NCBI RefSeq assembly: GCF_900105185.1
Contig: NZ_FNTJ01000001.1
Coordinates: 1,468,501-1,532,500, forward strand
DNA from: Pseudomonas saponiphila
GTDB taxonomy: Bacteria > Pseudomonadota > Gammaproteobacteria > Pseudomonadales > Pseudomonadaceae
Reading direction: 5' to 3'
Length of the DNA: 64,000 nt
In this document: one piece after another, positions 7,794-16,475 of the stretch
Position numbering within the stretch: the stretch's first letter is position 1
Layout of the letters: each line of letters starts with the position of its first letter
Notes under the pieces: model-generated
Database searches by the model: none
Told to the model about the DNA's origin: nothing
Seen by the model: the letters and a program-made list of their open reading frames with translations, nothing else
Position numbers and translations under genes: made by a program

Positions 7794-7943
7794 GTAGCCG
7801 CTGCCGCAGGCGGCGAACGGCTTAGGCGGCATTGCGACGCAGCAGACGCAAGAATCCTGAGGCCGCTGCTGGTTTGGCAGGCGATCGCCAGGCAAGGCCC
7901 TGTGGGCCTTTTCGCAGCCTCGCCGGGGCTCGGCAGCGGCTAC
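7794..7943. repeat. Long inverted repeat, REP/BIME-like, downstream of pqiC
   Basis: A 13-base arm at 7794-7806 (GTAGCCGCTGCCG) is exactly repeated in inverse orientation at 7931-7943. The GC-rich interior has further partial palindromes. It sits between the convergent pqiC and a LysR gene, the usual position for extragenic palindromic elements in Pseudomonas. A role in transcript ends is possible but not shown. Confidence 0.75.
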
Positions 7944-7951
7944 GAGGGGGC

Positions 7952-8869
7952 TCAGCGTCGCGCCAGGTGTTGCTGGGGCGCGAGGAAGGCGTCGTGGAAG
8001 TAGGCACGCAAGGCCTGCATCGCCGGGGTGAAGGTGCGTTCGCGATGCCAGGCCAGCCCCACGCTCATCGGCGTGACCGCGTCGCTCAGGCTCAGGGTCT
8101 CGATGCGCTTGCCCTCCAGGGACCAGGGCCGGTGCACCAGGTCGGAAAGAATCGCCACGCCGCTGCCGTTGGCCACCATGCTGCGCACCGCTTCCACCGA
8201 GCTGGTGCGCACCCGCACGTTGGGCTGCTGGCCGGCCTGTTCCCAATAGCGCATGGCGCTCTGTTCGGCTTCGTCGACGGTGAGCAGGATGAACGGCTCA
8301 GCGGCCACGTCCGCCAGGCTGATGCTGGTGCGCTCGCACAGCGGATGGTGGGCCGGCAGCCATAGCCGGCGCTCGGAGTTGAACAGGGTCTGCGAGACGA
8401 TGTCCGGGTGGGTCAGGTTGGCGGTGAGCACCACCGCCATGTCGAAGCGGCCTTCCAGCAAGCCTTGTTCGATGGCCTGGCGTTCCTGTTCATGCAGCTC
8501 GATGGTGACGTCCGGGTGCCAGTGTTCCAGGCGCTGCAGGTGGTGCGGCAGGAAGTAGCCGATCACCGTGTAGCTGGCCGCCAGGTGCAGCACGCCGCTG
8601 GCCCGGTAGTCCGGCAACGGGCTGTTCAGGGCATCCTCGACGCTGCGCAGGATCACGTAGGCGCGGTTGAGAAAGTGCCGCCCGGCATCGGTCAGGTTCA
8701 TGCCCTGGGCCGAGCGCACGAACAACTGCACCGCGAGCATGGCCTCCAGTTCCTTGATCGCCGTGGTCACCGCCGACTGCGAGATATTCAAGTGAATCGC
8801 CGCCTGGGAGATCTGCCCGATCTCGGCCGTGGCCACGAAATAGCGCACCTGGCGCAAGGTCAACGACAT
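7952..8869 (-). CDS. LysR-family regulator, divergent to the biotin/5-oxoprolinase operon
   Basis: A 305-residue LysR protein. N-terminal helix-turn-helix residues about 3-62 ('GQISQAAIHLNISQSAVTTA', 'LFVRSAQGMNLTDAGRHFL') and a C-terminal effector-binding domain. It is transcribed away from the LamB/YcsF (pxpA-like) gene across a 199-bp region that holds a perfect 10+10 palindrome at 8981-9006. From position I infer that it controls the carboxylase/5-oxoprolinase operon; the inducer could be a lactam or imide substrate. The 3' end abuts the REP-like repeat. Confidence 0.87.
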   Translation of the reverse strand: MSLTLRQVRYFVATAEIGQISQAAIHLNISQSAVTTAIKELEAMLAVQLFVRSAQGMNLTDAGRHFLNRAYVILRSVEDALNSPLPDYRASGVLHLAASYTVIGYFLPHHLQRLEHWHPDVTIELHEQERQAIEQGLLEGRFDMAVVLTANLTHPDIVSQTLFNSERRLWLPAHHPLCERTSISLADVAAEPFILLTVDEAEQSAMRYWEQAGQQPNVRVRTSSVEAVRSMVANGSGVAILSDLVHRPWSLEGKRIETLSLSDAVTPMSVGLAWHRERTFTPAMQALRAYFHDAFLAPQQHLARR

Positions 8870-8890
8870 GACCCATTCCCCTCTTGTCCT

Positions 8891-8913
8891 GTAGGAGCCG
8901 GCTTGCCGGCGAA
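8891..8913 (+). repeat. REP element
   Basis: GTAGGAGCCGGC followed by TTGCCGGCGAA is the common Pseudomonas REP palindrome. It occurs again at 16643, 44817 and (inverted) 50136. Confidence 0.85.
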
Positions 8914-8980
8914 AGCGATGGTGCGAACGCCGCTGCCGCCAAATCCGGCATTGCTCTTTAGCTTTATCTGTTTTTCAGAA

Positions 8981-9006
8981 GAAGATCTATCTGATAATAG
9001 ATCTTC
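8981..9006. promoter_or_regulatory. Perfect palindrome in the LysR/pxpA divergent promoter region
   Basis: GAAGATCTAT (8981-8990), a 6-base spacer and ATAGATCTTC (8997-9006). It lies 112 bp from the LysR start and 63 bp from pxpA. The core fits the dyad form of LysR operators. Assignment is by position and symmetry. Confidence 0.6.
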
Positions 9007-9068
9007 CCAAGGGGTCAAGGCCGCTCTAATTTCCGTTGCACGAAGTCACGAGAGTTGGAGCAACAGTG

Positions 9069-9827
9069 ATGCAGGCAGTGGATTTCAATTCGGACATGGG
9101 CGAGAGCTTCGGCCCCTGGACCATCGGCGATGGTGTCGACGACCAACTGATGGGCTTCATCAGCTCGGCCAACATCGCCACCGGCTTTCATGCTGGTGAC
9201 CCCGGCACCATGCGCCGCACCATCGAGCAGGCCAAGCGCCGGGGCGTAGCCATCGGTGCGCACCCGGGGTTTCGCGACCTGGTGGGTTTCGGGCGCCGGC
9301 ATATCAATGCCCCGGCCCAGGAACTGGTGGACGACATGCTCTATCAGCTAGGCGCCCTGCGTGAACTGGCCCGGGTACAAGGCGTGAAGCTGCAACACAT
9401 CAAGCCCCACGGCGCGCTCTACATGCACCTGGCCCGGGACGAAGAAGCGGCGCGACTGCTGGTGGCAAACCTGCGCCTGCTGGAGCCCGAGCTGCTGCTG
9501 TATTGCATGCCCAATTCGGTGATCTGGCAGGTGGCCCGGGAACTGGGCCAGCCGGTGATCCGCGAGTTCTACGCCGACCGCGACTACGACCTCAGCGGCT
9601 CCATCGTGTTTACCCGCAACGTCAGGGCCCTGGACCCGGGCGTCGTGGCGGCCAAGGTGCTGCGCGCCTGCCAGACCGGCCTGGTGCGCACCGTTGAAGG
9701 CGAGGATCTGCACATCGAATTCGATTCCATCTGCCTACACAGCGACACCCCCGGTGCCCTGGACCTGGTCGAGGCCACCCGTACCGCGCTGGACCAGGCC
9801 GGCATCGAGGTGCGCGCACCGCGCTGA
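9069..9827 (+). CDS. pxpA: LamB/YcsF family protein, 5-oxoprolinase subunit A-like
   Basis: A 252-residue LamB/YcsF protein. It begins '[17 protein letters not shown]' and contains '[20 protein letters not shown]', '[15 protein letters not shown]' and '[12 protein letters not shown]', which are hallmark blocks of the family. PxpA works with PxpB and PxpC in ATP-dependent opening of 5-oxoproline to glutamate. Here it heads an operon in which biotin carboxyl carrier and biotin carboxylase genes lie between A and B, so the substrate and mechanism may differ. The ATG at 9069 is where the family normally starts. Confidence 0.9.
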
Positions 9828-9936
9828 GCCCATCGACGCCAATCACATCGACCAGAAGCACCGCGCACAGACGCGGGCCTCACCCGGGTTTTGAATTTTT
9901 GCCTGCCTTTCTACAACTATTCCAAGAGGAACAGAC

Positions 9937-10179
9937 ATGGCCGAACACAGTGTTATCACCCCTTTGCCGGGCACCTTCTATCGCAAGGCCACCCCCGATT
10001 CGGCGCCTTTTGTCGAGGTCGGCGATGTCGTCAGCGCCGATACCGTGATCGGCCTGATCGAAGTCATGAAGCAGTTCTCCGAACTGACCGCCGGGAGCGC
10101 GGGTCAGGTCAGCGCCTTTGCCGTGGAAGATGGCGATCCGGTGGAACCGGGTCAGGTCGTCGCGACGCTCAAGCAGTGA
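9937..10179 (+). CDS. Stand-alone biotin carboxyl carrier domain protein
   Basis: Only 80 residues: just the biotinyl/lipoyl-attachment domain, without the N-terminal part of normal AccB (about 150 residues). The biotin lysine lies in 'LIEVMKQFSEL'; the usual EAMKM is replaced by EVMKQ. The end, 'EDGDPVEPGQVVATL', is the conserved second half of the hammerhead fold. It should be biotinylated by BirA and carry carboxybiotin between the adjacent biotin carboxylase and a carboxyltransferase made from the PxpB/PxpC homologues. An AGAGGAAC site precedes the ATG. Confidence 0.9.
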   Translation: MAEHSVITPLPGTFYRKATPDSAPFVEVGDVVSADTVIGLIEVMKQFSELTAGSAGQVSAFAVEDGDPVEPGQVVATLKQ

Positions 10180-10189
10180 GGGCCGGGGC

Positions 10190-11563
10190 ATGACTCAAGC
10201 GATCAACAAGTTGCTGGTGGCCAACCGCGGCGAGATCGCCGTGCGTATCATTCGCGCGGCCAAGGCCCTGGGCATTCCCACGGTGGCCGCGTGCAGCGAG
10301 GCGGATGCCGATTCCATGGCCGCGCGCCTGGCCGATGAAGTGCAGATCATCGGCCCGGCCCGGGCCGACAAGAGCTACCTGAATGTCCAGGCCCTGCTCG
10401 GCGCCTTGCAGGCCAGCGGTGCCAATGCGGTGCACCCGGGCTATGGCTTTCTTTCCGAGAACGCCGGTTTCGCCGAGGCGGTGGTCGAGGCGGGGGCGAT
10501 TTTCGTCGGGCCCAGCGCCGAAACCATCCGCCGCATGGGGGACAAGGCCGAAGCCCGGCGCACCGCCCAGGCGGCCGGGGTGCCGGTGGTACCGGGTTCC
10601 GCGGGCGAACTCTTCGACCTGGAGGCCGCGCTCAAGGCTGCCGAAGGCGTGGGCTTTCCGCTGTTGATCAAGGCCAGCGCCGGTGGCGGCGGGCGCGGGA
10701 TCCGCCTGGCCCAGGACGCGGCGCAACTGGCCGAGGAATTCCCCCGGGCGCAACGCGAAGCCCAGACCGCGTTCGGCAATGGCGCGGTGTACCTGGAGCG
10801 TTTCATTGGCCGTGCGCGGCACATCGAAGTCCAGGTGTTGGGCGATGGCCAGCACGCGGTGCACCTGTTCGAGCGCGAGTGCTCGCTGCAACGGCGGCGG
10901 CAGAAGATCTTCGAGGAAGCGCCGTCGCCGGTGCTCAGCGCCGCCCAGCGTGAGCAGTTGTGCAGCAGCGCCGTGCGCCTGACCCAAGCCCTGGGTTACC
11001 AGGGCGCCGGCACCCTGGAATACCTGTATGACGACAGCACCGGCGAGTTCTTCTTCATCGAGATGAACACGCGGATCCAGGTCGAGCACCCCATCAGCGA
11101 GCTGATCACTGGTATCGATCTGGTCCAGGCCATGTTGAGGATTGCCGGGGGCGAGCCCCTGGGGTTGCGTCAGAGCGATATCCAACTCAACGGCGCGGCC
11201 TTGCAGATGCGCCTGAATGCCGAAGACCCGGCGCGGGATTTCTTCCCCAGTCCGGGCCAGGTCGAGCAACTGATCTGGCCGCAGGGGCCGGGGGTGCGGG
11301 TCGATAGCCATCTTTACCCGGGCTATGCTGTGCCGCCTTATTACGACTCGCTGCTGGCCAAGCTGATCGTTCACGGGCGTGACCGGGGCGAGGCCCTGGC
11401 CCGGGCACGGCAGGCGCTGGAGCAGACCACCTTGACCGGCATGGCCAGCACCTTGTCGCTGCACCGTGAACTGCTGGCCGAACCCTGGTTGCAGCAGGCC
11501 GATTTTCACACGGGAACCCTGGAAACCTGGCTGGCCGCGCGCCGCGCCGGAGGTGTCGCATGA
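10190..11563 (+). CDS. Biotin carboxylase subunit (AccC-like paralogue)
   Basis: A 457-residue biotin carboxylase of normal length. It opens with 'KLLVANRGEIAVRIIRAAKA' and has the ATP-grasp glycine loop 'ASAGGGGRGIRLA' (about 160-172) and the catalytic 'EMNTRIQVEHPISELITGID' block near 285-305. It would use ATP and bicarbonate to carboxylate biotin on the neighbouring 80-residue carrier. It lies within a pxp-type operon, not beside accB, so it is probably a dedicated pathway paralogue, not the fatty-acid enzyme. Its stop overlaps the next start (ATGA at 11560). Confidence 0.92.
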   Translation: MTQAINKLLVANRGEIAVRIIRAAKALGIPTVAACSEADADSMAARLADEVQIIGPARADKSYLNVQALLGALQASGANAVHPGYGFLSENAGFAEAVVEAGAIFVGPSAETIRRMGDKAEARRTAQAAGVPVVPGSAGELFDLEAALKAAEGVGFPLLIKASAGGGGRGIRLAQDAAQLAEEFPRAQREAQTAFGNGAVYLERFIGRARHIEVQVLGDGQHAVHLFERECSLQRRRQKIFEEAPSPVLSAAQREQLCSSAVRLTQALGYQGAGTLEYLYDDSTGEFFFIEMNTRIQVEHPISELITGIDLVQAMLRIAGGEPLGLRQSDIQLNGAALQMRLNAEDPARDFFPSPGQVEQLIWPQGPGVRVDSHLYPGYAVPPYYDSLLAKLIVHGRDRGEALARARQALEQTTLTGMASTLSLHRELLAEPWLQQADFHTGTLETWLAARRAGGVA

Positions 11564-12432
11564 ACCAGCCGATCCGCTACAGCTTTGGTGCCGACGAGCA
11601 CCTGTTCGCCGAAGTCAGCGACAGCATGTCCCTGGAAGCCTTCTTCAAGGGCATGGCGGTGACCCGCGCCGTGCAGCGCCTGGAGTTGGATGGGGTGTTG
11701 GATGTGTGCCTGGCCAACGCCTCGTTCCAGATCCGTTTCGACCCGGATCGCATCGCTCCGCAGGCCCTGCTGGAGGCGGTGCAGCAGGCCGAGGCCGGGG
11801 CCGTGGCCGAGCGCAGCCTGCACACGCGGATCATCGAGATCCCGGTGCTGTACAACGACCCCTGGACCCATGAAACCCTGATGCGCTTTCGCGACCGGCA
11901 CCAGGACCCCAGCGCCACCGACCTTGAATACGCGGCGCGGATCAATGGGCTGGCGGACGTCCAGGCCTTCATTGCCGCCCACAGCGGCGCGCCCTGGTTC
12001 GTCTCCATGGTGGGCTTCGTCGCCGGGCTGCCGTTCATGTTCCAGATGGTCGAGCGCCAGCGGCAGTTGCAGGTGCCCAAGTACCTGCGGCCACGCACCG
12101 ATACGCCAAGGCTGACCCTGGGTCACGGCGGCTGCTTCGGCTGCATCTACTCGGTGCGCGGCGCCGGTGGCTACCAGATGTTCGGCGTCACTCCGGCGCC
12201 GATCTACGACCCGCAGCAGCAACTGGCTTACCTCAAGGCGCACATGGTGTTCTTCCGCCCGGGGGACATCGTGCAGTTCAAGCCCATCGACCGCGAGGCC
12301 TATGACCTGGCGGTGGCCGAGGTCGAGGCCGGGCGCTTCGACCTGCGCATCCGCGAGGTGGAGTTTTCCCTGGATGCCTTTCTCGCCGACCCGGTCGGCT
12401 ATCCCAAATCGCTGCAGGAGGTGCTGGCATGA
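11560..12432 (+). CDS. pxpB: 5-oxoprolinase subunit B-like (KipI / allophanate-hydrolase subunit 1 family)
   Basis: A 290-residue protein of the KipI/PxpB family (carboxyltransferase domain C/D). Conserved blocks are 'RIIEIPVLYNDPWTHE', 'FVAGLPFM' and a glycine-rich stretch near 186-200, 'HGGCFGCIYSVRGAGGYQMF'. The family is homologous to part of urea carboxylase, which needs biotin; that fits the biotin genes next door. The length exceeds the typical ~220 residues of PxpB because of inserted helices around residues 100-140. Coupled to its neighbours by ATGA overlaps on both sides. Confidence 0.88.
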   Translation: MNQPIRYSFGADEHLFAEVSDSMSLEAFFKGMAVTRAVQRLELDGVLDVCLANASFQIRFDPDRIAPQALLEAVQQAEAGAVAERSLHTRIIEIPVLYNDPWTHETLMRFRDRHQDPSATDLEYAARINGLADVQAFIAAHSGAPWFVSMVGFVAGLPFMFQMVERQRQLQVPKYLRPRTDTPRLTLGHGGCFGCIYSVRGAGGYQMFGVTPAPIYDPQQQLAYLKAHMVFFRPGDIVQFKPIDREAYDLAVAEVEAGRFDLRIREVEFSLDAFLADPVGYPKSLQEVLA

Positions 12433-13403
12433 TCAAGGTCATCAAACCGGGCCTGGCCACATCGGTGCAGGATCTGGGACGCGAAGGTTTCTATCACCTG
12501 GGGATTCCGCCCTCCGGCGCCCTCGACCAGTACGCCCTGAGCGCGGCCAACCACTTGGTGGGCAACCCGGCAGGCGTGGCCGGGCTGGAATGCACCTTGC
12601 TCGGACCGGAGCTGGAATTCGCCAGCGATGCCCTGGTGGCGGTCTGCGGTGCACACATGACCCCCAAGCTCGATGGCGTGGACATGCACCTGGACACCGC
12701 CTTTGCGGTCAAGGCCGGGCAAGTGCTGCGTTTCGACTTTCCCAAGGCCGGGGCCCGGGCCTACCTGGCAGTGGCCGGTGGCATCGATGTGCCGCTGGTG
12801 CTGGGCAGCCGTTCGACTTACGCCCTGGGCGCCCTCGGTGGTTTCCAGGGGCGGCGTCTGGCGGCCGGGGATGAACTGCCGGTGGGCGTTGCCAGCGGCA
12901 AGGGCCGTCCGGGCGCCAGTCTGCCCATGGCGCTGCGCCAATCCCTGGGGGGTGAAGTCACCCTGCGGGTGGTGCCGGGCCTGTATTACGAACGCTTGAG
13001 CGAGGCGGCCAAGGCCAGCTTCTTTGCCGAACCCTGGACCGTGGGTTCGGAAGCGGACCGCATCGGCTATCGCTTCAAGGGTGGCAGTGCCTTGAGCTTC
13101 CAGCCTCGGGAGCAGCCGTTCGGCGCCGGTTCCGACCCTTCGAACATCGTCGACAGCTGCTACCCGATCGGCTCGATCCAGGTGCCGGCGGGGCTGGAGC
13201 CCATTGTCCTGCACCGGGACGCGGTGTCCGGTGGCGGCTACGCCATGATCGGCACGGTGATCAGCGCCGACCTTGATCTGATCGGCCAGATGCAGCCCAA
13301 CCAGAAGGCCCGCTTTGTCGCGGTGACCCTCGAAGAAGCGCTGGAGGCCCGGCGCTCCTACAAGAAAAAGCTCAGCTGTCTGAGCAAGCTCTTTCCTTCC
13401 TGA
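12429..13403 (+). CDS. pxpC: 5-oxoprolinase subunit C-like (KipA / biotin-dependent carboxyltransferase family)
   Basis: A 324-residue KipA/PxpC (carboxyltransferase domain A/B) protein. It starts 'MIKVIKPGLATSVQDLGREG' and has 'GIPPSGALDQYALSAANHLV' and, toward the end, 'SGGYAMIGTVISADL'. With the preceding protein it should form the catalytic heterodimer that transfers carboxyl from carboxybiotin or activates the lactam. The start overlaps the pxpB-like stop. The operon continues across a 111-bp gap to a permease. Confidence 0.88.
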   Translation: MIKVIKPGLATSVQDLGREGFYHLGIPPSGALDQYALSAANHLVGNPAGVAGLECTLLGPELEFASDALVAVCGAHMTPKLDGVDMHLDTAFAVKAGQVLRFDFPKAGARAYLAVAGGIDVPLVLGSRSTYALGALGGFQGRRLAAGDELPVGVASGKGRPGASLPMALRQSLGGEVTLRVVPGLYYERLSEAAKASFFAEPWTVGSEADRIGYRFKGGSALSFQPREQPFGAGSDPSNIVDSCYPIGSIQVPAGLEPIVLHRDAVSGGGYAMIGTVISADLDLIGQMQPNQKARFVAVTLEEALEARRSYKKKLSCLSKLFPS

Positions 13404-13449
13404 TTCTGCCCGCCGCATCGCGCGGGCCATGCCAAACGGTAGGCCAACG

Positions 13450-13465
13450 CCGCACTTCGGTGCGG
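13450..13465 (+). other. UUCG-capped hairpin between pxpC and the permease gene
   Basis: CCGCAC (13450-13455), TTCG, GTGCGG (13460-13465): a perfect 6-bp stem with the very stable UUCG loop. No T run follows, so it is more likely an mRNA processing or stabilising hairpin than a terminator. Confidence 0.5.
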
Positions 13466-13514
13466 TGACGGCTGCCCGCGCTTCAACCCTTGATCGGTTC
13501 TGGAGTTCACGCAC

Positions 13515-14837
13515 ATGGCAGCTTTATCGCAAGCGAATCAAACCGGGCAGACCCCGGCCAACCTGGCCCTTCCCAGCGAGGCCCGCATGGGTCGACTGTC
13601 CCTGACCATGGCCTGGTGGGCGGTGTGCAGCGCGATGTTCTACATCGTCGTCGGCGCCTCCCTGGCTTTGTCCTATGGCACCCGCAATGCCTTGATCGGC
13701 ATGCTCCTGTCGGTGCTCAGCTATGGCCTGGTCAACAGCGTGCTCAGCCGCTTCGCCATGCGCAGCGGGCTCTCGGTGGCGCTGTTCTCGCGGTTGCTGT
13801 TCGGCAGCACCGGGGCTTGCCTGGCGACCCTGATCTTTTTCTCCACGGCCATCTACTACGCGGTGTTCGAGGGTTCGGTGATTGCCGTGGCGCTCAATCA
13901 CCTGTACCCGCAACTGCTGTACCCGCTGGCGGCCCTGCTGGTGGTGCTGTACAGCGTGCCGCTGATCCTGGGCAGCGTGCAGCACTGGCTGGACAAGCTC
14001 AACGGCGTGCTGCTGCCGGTGTACCTGGGAGGCTTGCTGTTCGCCGTGGGCCTGTCGATCGCCCGTTATGGCTATCAGCCGCAATGGCTGGATTTCGGCC
14101 CGGCCAGCCCCAGCGGCAGCGGCTGGTGGGATTGCTTCGTGGCCTACATGGGAGTGTGGATCCTGATGCTGTTCACCTTCGACTACGCGCGCTTCGGCAA
14201 GCCCGAAGACGCCGGCTACCACGGTCGCTGGAACTTCGGCATGCCGTTCTACGCGGTGACCTTCCTGCTCAACGGCGCGGCGGGGATCTACCTGGTAAGC
14301 AGCATTCCCCACGAGGGCGCGCTCAATGAAGTCTCGGTGGTGATGGCCATTCTGCAGTTGATGGGGCTCTGGGGCCTGTTGTTCGTCTGGGCCACCCAGA
14401 CCCGGATCAACACCGCCAACTACTACCTGGCGACCCTGAACATGCAGGCGTTCTTCGGCCGCTTCGGCTTGCGCGGTTCCTACCTGATGTGGGCGGTGGC
14501 GGTGGGCATCATCGTCTATGGCCTGATGCTGGCGGACGTGTTCGCCTACCTGCTCAAGGCCCTGGCCTATCAGGGGATCTTCGTGGTGGCCTGGGTCGGC
14601 GTGGCCCTGGCGCAGATTCTCTCGGGGCGTACCGAGGTGGCGGCGATTGATCGTGTGGCGGCCTTCAACCCGGTGGGGCTGGCGGCCTGGTTCGGTGGCA
14701 CGGCCCTGGGCCTGATGCTGATGTGGGCGGGGGGCGGTCTGGCGAGTTTCTCGGCGCCGCTGACCGGGGTCCTGGCGTTTGCCTTGCAGGCCGGGCTCGC
14801 CGCTCGCTTGCACCAGCGCCTGCCCGCCGCCGGCTGA
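13515..14837 (+). CDS. Purine/cytosine permease-like (NCS1-type) transporter
   Basis: A 440-residue polytopic inner-membrane protein with about 12 transmembrane helices. The first helix follows 'MGRLSLTMAWWAVCSAMFYI', and the second is rich in Gly/Ser as in the purine-cytosine permease family. NCS1 carriers take up nucleobases, hydantoins or allantoin. Because it is the last gene after the 5-oxoprolinase-like set, its cargo is likely the same ring-shaped amide used by those enzymes; this is inference. It ends 27 bp from the convergent pit gene. Confidence 0.85.
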   Translation: MAALSQANQTGQTPANLALPSEARMGRLSLTMAWWAVCSAMFYIVVGASLALSYGTRNALIGMLLSVLSYGLVNSVLSRFAMRSGLSVALFSRLLFGSTGACLATLIFFSTAIYYAVFEGSVIAVALNHLYPQLLYPLAALLVVLYSVPLILGSVQHWLDKLNGVLLPVYLGGLLFAVGLSIARYGYQPQWLDFGPASPSGSGWWDCFVAYMGVWILMLFTFDYARFGKPEDAGYHGRWNFGMPFYAVTFLLNGAAGIYLVSSIPHEGALNEVSVVMAILQLMGLWGLLFVWATQTRINTANYYLATLNMQAFFGRFGLRGSYLMWAVAVGIIVYGLMLADVFAYLLKALAYQGIFVVAWVGVALAQILSGRTEVAAIDRVAAFNPVGLAAWFGGTALGLMLMWAGGGLASFSAPLTGVLAFALQAGLAARLHQRLPAAG

Positions 14838-14864
14838 GCGGGCGACGGCGCAGGCCCTGGTTGC

Positions 14865-16475
14865 TCAGAACAGTTGGGTGAACAGCCAGTACAGGCTGCC
14901 GGACAGCAGGATCGCCGCCGGCAGGGTCAGGATCCAGGCCATGGCCAGGTTGCGGATGGTGCGCATCTGCAACCCGCCGCCATTGGCCACCATGGTCCCG
15001 GCCACCCCCGAGGACAGCACGTGGGTGGTCGACACCGGCAGGCCGAACATGTCCGCCGCGCCGATGGTCAGCATCGCCACGGTTTCCGCCGAGGCGCCCT
15101 GGGCATAGGTCAGGTGGGTCTTGCCGATTTTCTCGCCGACGGTCACCACGATGCGCTTCCAGCCGACCATGGTGCCCAGGCCGAGGGCGATGGCCACGGC
15201 GATCTTCACCCACAGCGGGATGAAGCGGGTGGCGTTGTCGATCTGCTGCTTGAACAGTTGCAGCTTGTCCCGGGTGTCCTGGTCGAAGTGGCCGACCTGG
15301 TGCTTGTCCATCAGACGGATCGCTTCGCTGGTCAGGTACATGTCGTTGCGCACGTTGCCCATGGCTTCGGCGGGCACCTTGGCCAGGGAGCCGTAGCCCT
15401 TCACTTCACTGCCGATGGCTCCGGTCAGGGCGGCCAGGGCGGGGATCAGTTCGGCGGTCGCCTGCTTGCTGCGCATGTACTCCGAGAGCACCGCGCGAGG
15501 ATCGGCCGGCGCCGGTTGCGGGGCGCTCTTGACCAGGGCCTGCTGGGTGACTTCGGCCACCGCGGCGAACTGCAGCGACTGGTCGGCGGGCATGGTGCGG
15601 TTCAGCGCGTAGGCCATGGGCAGGGTGCCCACCAGGATCAGCATGATCAGGCCCATGCCTTTCTGGCCATCGTTGGAGCCGTGGGCGAAGGACACCCCGG
15701 TGCAGGTCAGGATCAGCAGGCCGCGAATCCACCACGGCGGTGGCGCGTCACCCTTGGGCGCCTTGTACAGGGCGCGGTTCTTGACGAACAGGCGCAGGGC
15801 TAACAGCAGCAGGGCGGCGAACACGAAGCCGATCAGTGGCGAGAACAGCAGGGCGTAGCCGACCTTGGTCGCCTGGCTCCAGTCCACGCCGCTGGTGCCG
15901 TCGCGGCCGTGCATCAGCGCGTTGGCCACGCCGACGCCGATGATCGAGCCGATCAGGGTGTGGGACGAAGAGGCCGGCAGCCCCAGCCACCAGGTGCCGA
16001 GGTTCCACAGGATGGCGGCGATCAGCAGGGCGAAGATCATCGCGAAGCCGGCGGAGGAGCCCACTTGCAGGATCAGTTCCACCGGCAGCAGGGCGATGAT
16101 GCCGAAGGCCACCGCGCCGCTGGACAGCAGCACGCCAAGGAAGTTGAACAGGCCGGACCAGACCACCGCGAACTGCGGCGGCAGGGAGTGGGTGTAGATC
16201 ACCGTGGCCACGGCGTTGGCGGTGTCGTGGAAACCGTTGACGAACTCGAAGCCCAGGGCGATCAGCAGGGCCACGCCCAGCAGCAGGAACGGGGTCCAGG
16301 TGGTGACCGTGGTGCCCAGCTCGTGCATGTCGTGCACCAGGCTGTAGGCGGTGAACAGCAAGCCCATGGCCAGCACGGCGAAGAAGATCACCAGGGTGAA
16401 GGCACCGGGTTTTTTATCCAGTTGCGGTTTGACGTCGGGGCTGGGAGACGCGGCAGTCAGTGACGGGGTGGCCAT
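14865..16475 (-). CDS. pitA: Low-affinity inorganic phosphate transporter, Pit family
   Basis: A 536-residue PiT-family permease with the two signature repeats: 'GFHDTANAVATVIYTHSLPP' near residue 65 and 'TIGAADMFGLPVSTTHVLSS' near the end. About ten transmembrane helices plus a long hydrophilic loop in the middle (about 320-410). It moves metal-phosphate complexes with protons. The ATG at 16475 is chosen because an AGGA site is placed correctly; a more upstream in-frame start would add 17 residues without such a site. Monocistronic by position. Confidence 0.9.
   Translation of the reverse strand: MATPSLTAASPSPDVKPQLDKKPGAFTLVIFFAVLAMGLLFTAYSLVHDMHELGTTVTTWTPFLLLGVALLIALGFEFVNGFHDTANAVATVIYTHSLPPQFAVVWSGLFNFLGVLLSSGAVAFGIIALLPVELILQVGSSAGFAMIFALLIAAILWNLGTWWLGLPASSSHTLIGSIIGVGVANALMHGRDGTSGVDWSQATKVGYALLFSPLIGFVFAALLLLALRLFVKNRALYKAPKGDAPPPWWIRGLLILTCTGVSFAHGSNDGQKGMGLIMLILVGTLPMAYALNRTMPADQSLQFAAVAEVTQQALVKSAPQPAPADPRAVLSEYMRSKQATAELIPALAALTGAIGSEVKGYGSLAKVPAEAMGNVRNDMYLTSEAIRLMDKHQVGHFDQDTRDKLQLFKQQIDNATRFIPLWVKIAVAIALGLGTMVGWKRIVVTVGEKIGKTHLTYAQGASAETVAMLTIGAADMFGLPVSTTHVLSSGVAGTMVANGGGLQMRTIRNLAMAWILTLPAAILLSGSLYWLFTQLF

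Follow-up and report, generated by a model that had tools for sequence, protein, structure and literature searches.

The window analysed here, a 64,000-nucleotide stretch of Pseudomonas saponiphila DNA (contig 1, 1468501-1532500, of a genome of 7.38 Mb in 4 contigs; G000), carries at 9069-14837 an operon encoding, in this order, PxpA, an 80-residue biotin carrier, a biotin carboxylase, a PxpB-like and a PxpC-like carboxyltransferase (CT) subunit, and a permease of predicted NCS1 fold (Table 1). The first-pass annotation of this DNA had placed a biotin carrier and a full biotin carboxylase between PxpA and the PxpB/PxpC homologues, and family models confirmed all of these genes. ATGA stop/start overlaps connect the carboxylase gene to that of the PxpB-like subunit (at 11560) and the latter to that of the PxpC-like subunit (at 12429). 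The window PxpA passed the subfamily model NF003814, and the catalytic motifs of the biotin carboxylase were present. A divergent LysR-type gene, which the earlier annotation lacked, belongs with the unit. The permease had been predicted as well; its assignment to NCS1 is weak by sequence (23.7 bits on TIGR00800, below the cut-off of 353.1, and no Pfam match) and strong by predicted fold, which would make it a divergent member at best.

Table 1. Features of the operon region in window coordinates (aa, amino acids; nt, nucleotides)
Feature	Position	Strand	Match or remark
LysR-type regulator	7952..8869	-	divergent from operon; Pfam LysR_substrate 162.5 bits, HTH_1 73.1 bits
PxpA / LamB-YcsF hydrolase, 252 aa	9069..9827	+	PF03746 (LamB_YcsF) 295 bits; NF003814 294.8 bits, cut-off 226
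Conserved 44-nt leader and carrier gene start	9899..9942	+	often kept upstream of PxpB after biotin-gene loss
parS-like 16-mer	9918-9933		in the PxpA-carrier gap, overlaps leader; 3 mismatches to consensus
Dedicated biotin carboxyl carrier protein, 80 aa	9937..10179	+	motif IEVMKQF; Biotin_lipoyl; NF005457 124.6 bits, cut-off 87
Dedicated biotin carboxylase, 457 aa	10190..11563	+	NF009471 835.6 bits, cut-off 686
PxpB-like CT subunit, C/D domain, 290 aa	11560..12432	+	Lys174
PxpC-like CT subunit, A/B domain, 324 aa	12429..13403	+	PF02626 303 bits; TIGR00724 271.8 bits, cut-off 230.2; D242 like urea carboxylase
NCS1-type permease, 440 aa	13515..14837	+	predicted fold

Conservation of the operon and its carrier

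The five-gene order was searched for in a phylum survey of 397 genomes. The cut-off of the carrier model NF005457 was too loose for this purpose (59 of the 397 genomes passed, mostly through frames of AccB length), and at least 95 bits were required at the level of the phylum and at least 117 bits within the genus. The 18 best carrier matches at this threshold included that of the window genome itself, and up to 20 kb were fetched around the other 17. The contiguous order PxpA-carrier-carboxylase-PxpB-PxpC was kept in 15 of these 17 loci, which is beyond chance, and a LysR match was likewise present in 15. One exception (L050) has the order PxpB-PxpC-carrier-carboxylase, with PxpA ∼6 kb upstream; the other (L037, genome G170) is fragmentary with a short carboxylase frame, and a window-type PxpB lies on another contig of the same genome. 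On plasmids, where 529 records had a PxpB match, the order was kept in all six records that were opened. Far from being a local oddity, the operon occurs widely across Proteobacteria and has a relative in haloarchaea. That relative, on a Haladaptatus plasmid (L210), comprises PxpB/PxpC with the same CT residues as the window pair (see below), an 80-residue carrier, carboxylase and PxpA. A Leisingera plasmid (L209) carries very divergent PxpB, PxpC and PxpA genes beside a TRAP transporter, with no biotin genes annotated nearby.

The carrier contains EVMKQ at the predicted biotinyl-lysine, a deviation already pointed out in the first-pass annotation. The family as a whole shows it: in 50 of 52 carriers, EVMK or ELMK precedes a Q, T or S, which rules out EVMKQ as the mark of a dead carrier; of the other two, one has EVMKM and one value stems from a pattern match elsewhere in an over-long frame. 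Compared with the housekeeping proteins of the same genome, the carrier shares 41% identity with the C-terminal part of AccB, and the carboxylase 52% with AccC.

A carboxyltransferase pair distinct from canonical PxpBC

A second set of pxp genes (L003) lies on contig 2 of the same genome and consists of LysR, MFS transporter, PxpA, PxpB and PxpC without biotin genes. Genome-wide, matches to LamB_YcsF occurred only in these two places, and the same was true for CT_C_D; the window operon as the sole 5-oxoprolinase candidate of the genome is thereby ruled out. The PxpB of L003 passed the 5-oxoprolinase model TIGR00370 (151.2 bits, cut-off 145.55). In contrast, the window PxpB-like protein scored 66.1 bits on this model and 101.3 bits on urea carboxylase. 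NF045499 (cut-off 500) was passed by neither PxpC, the window protein scoring 236.4 bits and that of biotin-free L003 198.5 bits. Identity between the two sets amounted to 37% for PxpA, 28% for PxpB and 34% for PxpC. A second, canonical-scoring PxpB was found in all 13 genomes tested, 11 of them exceeding the cut-off and the remaining two scoring 139 and 144 bits.

The CT residues were compared in a single selection of 14 window-family, 30 canonical and 30 urea carboxylase sequences. K174 of the window PxpB-like protein aligned with K1605 of urea carboxylase, the general-base lysine of the CT. A catalytic lysine occupied this position in 30/30 urea carboxylases, whereas 30/30 canonical PxpB had arginine there. 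Together with Y205 of PxpB and D242 of PxpC, it forms a signature, derived within the present analysis, that reads K/Y/D in the window and R/W/S in 30/30 canonical pairs. Canonical PxpB is also shorter (210-253 residues in 29/30, compared with 290 in the window), and a biotin carboxylase lay within 1.5 kb of only 3/30 canonical loci. By fold (best match; 3va7, 5i8i) and by tree, the window CT subunits grouped with urea carboxylases; in the tree, the window family formed a clade of its own beside a clade of the 30 urea carboxylases and L050.

However, the CT is not simply of the urea carboxylase kind. Sixteen shared CT positions had been chosen for agreement between the window family and urea carboxylase and are, hence, selected. 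An unselected set was defined by the 17 positions at which urea carboxylase (at least 90%) and canonical PxpBC (at least 85%) are fixed for different residues. At these, the window family agreed with urea carboxylase at four (K174, Y205, D242 and S267), with canonical PxpBC at seven and with neither at six, and thus differed from urea carboxylase at 13 of the 17. Overall, this count argues for a type of its own, and the window CT pair appears as a third type beside urea carboxylase and canonical PxpBC. Urea carboxylase (TIGR02712, the urea carboxylase/urea amidolyase model) shares with the window operon the biotin carboxylase, the carrier, a related CT and its catalytic lysine, but is one polypeptide and has allophanate hydrolase as its partner, where the window has four separate proteins and PxpA. 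The best of the four reached 516 bits on TIGR02712 (the carboxylase subunit; cut-off 1303.85). The window and canonical systems are built from the same three protein families and have in common a PxpA above the subfamily cut-off.

Repeated loss of the biotin pair

The best 80 of 585 loci, nearly all from Pseudomonas, gave counts that are no census. All 80 had matches to LysR, PxpA, PxpB and PxpC, and 52 lacked both carrier and carboxylase, absence being scored within at most 9 kb on each side (a few loci were cut by contig ends). When 10 of the biotin-less genomes were searched completely, a carrier above the cut-off was found in none (controls, 3/3). In a genus census based on an even draw of 199 genomes, window-type PxpB was present in 64 and the carrier in 24, all of which were among these 64; no carrier was found in any of the 135 census genomes without window-type PxpB. 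An 88.6-bit match of 148 residues in G486 was excluded from the carrier count, and one of the 64 genomes (G558) has an internal stop in its PxpB frame. The remaining 40 of the 64 thus retain window-type PxpB without a carrier anywhere in the genome, which indicates that the dedicated biotin genes, treated as indispensable in the earlier annotation, are not.

The biotin-less state results from repeated loss of the pair. Thirteen of the 52 biotin-less loci were inspected visually for scars, some with blastn support. The first carrier codons run directly into PxpB in L085, L090 and L133, decayed remnants persist in L064, L104 and L136, other remnants were seen in L080 and L135, and the deletion junctions differ among groups. 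In the tree, in which some nodes are weak, biotin-less loci fell into several separate clades, corresponding to six Fitch changes, or to 17 losses if regain is forbidden; both numbers apparently stayed the same when the weak nodes were collapsed. The leader upstream of the carrier gene (allowing up to 14 mismatches) was found in 28/28 loci with biotin genes and still in 37/52 without; an Rfam scan of 7800-15000, which includes it, gave no match.

The genes left behind are conserved. The 16 chosen CT positions were invariant in 51 loci with and 52 loci without the pair, and coverage of PxpA, PxpB and PxpC was at least 95% in 79/80 loci (the exception, PxpC of L094 with 86%, lies at a contig end). 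For PxpB and PxpC, the ratio of nonsynonymous to synonymous substitution rates (dN/dS) in hand-picked pairs was 0.04-0.11 without the biotin genes (six pairs) vs 0.01-0.08 with them (five pairs), slightly higher without yet well below 1. These ratios indicate that natural PxpABC-only forms are kept under purifying selection.

Proposed reaction and alternatives

Starting from the observed gene content and order of the operon, the CT residues and the repeated loss with its scars, we consider the chances roughly even that its products are a biotin-dependent amide carboxylase made of separate subunits, a relative of urea carboxylase, and, coupled to it, a PxpA hydrolase that opens a lactam-like ring; the reactions, the substrate class and the borrowing of biotin parts are what we infer. 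The NCS1-type permease would import a small cyclic amide (a lactam or a hydantoin-like ureide), the carboxylase would load CO2 onto the biotin of the 80-residue carrier, consuming ATP and bicarbonate, and PxpB together with PxpC, a CT with the catalytic lysine of urea carboxylase, would pass the carboxyl group on to the nitrogen of the ring. PxpA would then hydrolyze the activated ring, the N-carboxy group being released as CO2 and an amino acid being the product. Because the CT lysine and its neighbors are retained in biotin-less loci, the reaction there probably still uses carboxybiotin. Loss of the dedicated biotin parts, with the rest kept, hints that these relatives borrow such parts from elsewhere in the cell, and the likeness to AccB and AccC would make the housekeeping proteins a natural substitute. 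Where the dedicated pair is deleted, AccB/AccC would probably supply the CT with carboxybiotin, or a different carrier pair would do so in some genomes. Five of 10 biotin-less genomes searched (G397, G398, G399, G402 and G404) contain another carrier-carboxylase pair at their second pxp locus, which is a possible alternative donor; the other five had no such pair within the stretches examined. The first-pass proposal of a separate-subunit, biotin-dependent carboxylase/hydrolase is partly supported, by the separate carrier, carboxylase and CT subunits, by PxpA and the NCS1-fold permease, by the distinctness from the canonical pxpABC of the genome and by the catalytic lysine, but the dedicated biotin genes are dispensable.

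Several observations weigh against a biotin-dependent ring carboxylase. Besides the split at the 17 unselected CT positions and the 40 carrier-free genomes, a biotin-independent reaction would explain the common biotin-less operons too. Transporters vary, and other loci have ABC systems of the ribose-like or putrescine-like kind: a ribose-like binding protein adjoins 10 of 103 clustered loci, a HyuA-type gene adjoins five of 103, and the putrescine-like genes come with two short-chain dehydrogenases in some loci. The permease itself accompanies 2 of the 17 phylum loci. No PxpA gene was found within 1.5 kb of 30 full-length urea carboxylases. Moreover, biotin genes do not strictly go with one CT type. 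Carrier and carboxylase lie beside canonical R/W/S PxpB/PxpC in Pseudomonas cerasi (L199), Pseudomonas KUIN-1 (L204), other Pseudomonas (L200, L201 and, 3-5 kb off, L202) and on plasmids of Lactiplantibacillus (L205) and Rhizobium (L208), and the three canonical loci with a nearby carboxylase point the same way. As pairs accompany canonical PxpBC too, the biotin genes are weakened as a marker of chemistry; together with the biotin-less K loci, this rules out a fixed association, in either direction, between the urea carboxylase-type lysine of a CT and dedicated biotin genes. It seems that pxp operons acquired biotin pairs on more than one occasion, and canonical PxpBC may be worth re-examining as well. 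The Rhizobium plasmid contains two annotated carrier genes.

A bolder version of the ring-amide carboxylase, which we hold only tentatively, is a third kind of CT_AB/CT_CD enzyme, modular in the sense that it uses any carrier-carboxylase pair at hand, the dedicated pair being optional and AccB/AccC of acetyl-CoA carboxylase serving once it is deleted. The other possible donor pair in five biotin-less genomes makes reliance on AccB/AccC less likely. If this version were true, use of a lactam-like nitrogen source would be tied to fatty acid synthesis. The repeated natural deletions make directly testable whether a CT outside lipid synthesis runs on the AccB/AccC of the cell.

It is doubtful that the operon encodes a second ATP-dependent 5-oxoprolinase-type hydrolase, working as PxpABC alone with the biotin genes as passengers or serving another carboxylation. 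The gene names and the PxpA model, the persistence of window-type PxpB in 40/64 genomes without carrier, the coming and going of biotin genes beside canonical PxpB as well, and agreement with canonical PxpBC at seven of 17 positions are all consistent with it. On the other hand, the window PxpB remains far below a cut-off that the genome's other PxpB passes, K174, Y205 and D242 match urea carboxylase, all 13 genomes tested hold a second canonical-scoring PxpB, and the carrier is absent from all 135 census genomes without window-type PxpB. Slightly less probable still is a switch of the CT to a biotin-independent reaction in pair-less lineages, so that the two operon forms would differ in function: the repeated deletions were apparently tolerated and the permease occurred in 19/28 loci with the pair vs 0/52 without, but the 16 chosen CT positions are unchanged in 52/52 pair-less loci, their PxpB is still 89-93% identical to that of the window, and the dN/dS ratios are low in both forms. 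It is improbable that the operon forms a urea carboxylase divided into subunits, with PxpA in place of allophanate hydrolase, whose substrate is an open-chain compound (urea, guanidine or an acyl amide); the CT subunits do adjoin urea carboxylases in the tree, and L050 with its distant PxpA even groups with them, but the window family is its own clade, PxpA is a ring hydrolase in known 5-oxoprolinase, the cassette contains neither amidase nor allophanate hydrolase, and HyuA and NCS1 neighbors suggest rings.

Proteins of this type are annotated as subunits of 5-oxoprolinase or allophanate hydrolase, or as acetyl-CoA carboxylase; the few residues that separate the three CT types would be useful for re-annotation. 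LamA of Aspergillus nidulans is a fused urea-carboxylase-like protein. The lamA/lamB system for 2-pyrrolidinone utilization is fungal and was likened to the window operon by description; one report links ycsF to lamB and 2-pyrrolidinone (PMC3412718). In Mycobacterium smegmatis, the title of PDB entry 9yx5 describes the long-chain acyl-CoA carboxylase complex with a PxpBC-type pair (MSMEG_0435-0436) bound to it. It resembles the proposed arrangement in joining such a pair to a biotin carboxylase complex, differs in being actinobacterial, and, if biotin parts are indeed borrowed, this contact may reflect a general principle. Unstudied gene pairs whose members each resemble one half of the urea carboxylase CT are noted in PMC3199775. 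Within open-licence literature, to which the search was confined, no description of the system was found among work on YcsF/LamB with biotin carboxylase, 5-oxoprolinase with biotin, and lactam utilization, but a counterpart is mentioned. Pseudomonas aeruginosa PA0492-PA0496, matched by description only, is the same gene set; in PMC6249292, PA0494 is reported as 55% identical to AccC and PA0493 as 40% identical to AccB, and their function is called unknown. Four of the five genes are listed in a regulon in PMC8768829. PMC5521831 mentions PA0492-PA0496 without a function and places parS6 of P. aeruginosa next to them. The window contains a parS-like 16-mer within the leader; since 17 of 100 shuffles also yielded at least one such match per 64 kb, it may be just part of the conserved leader.

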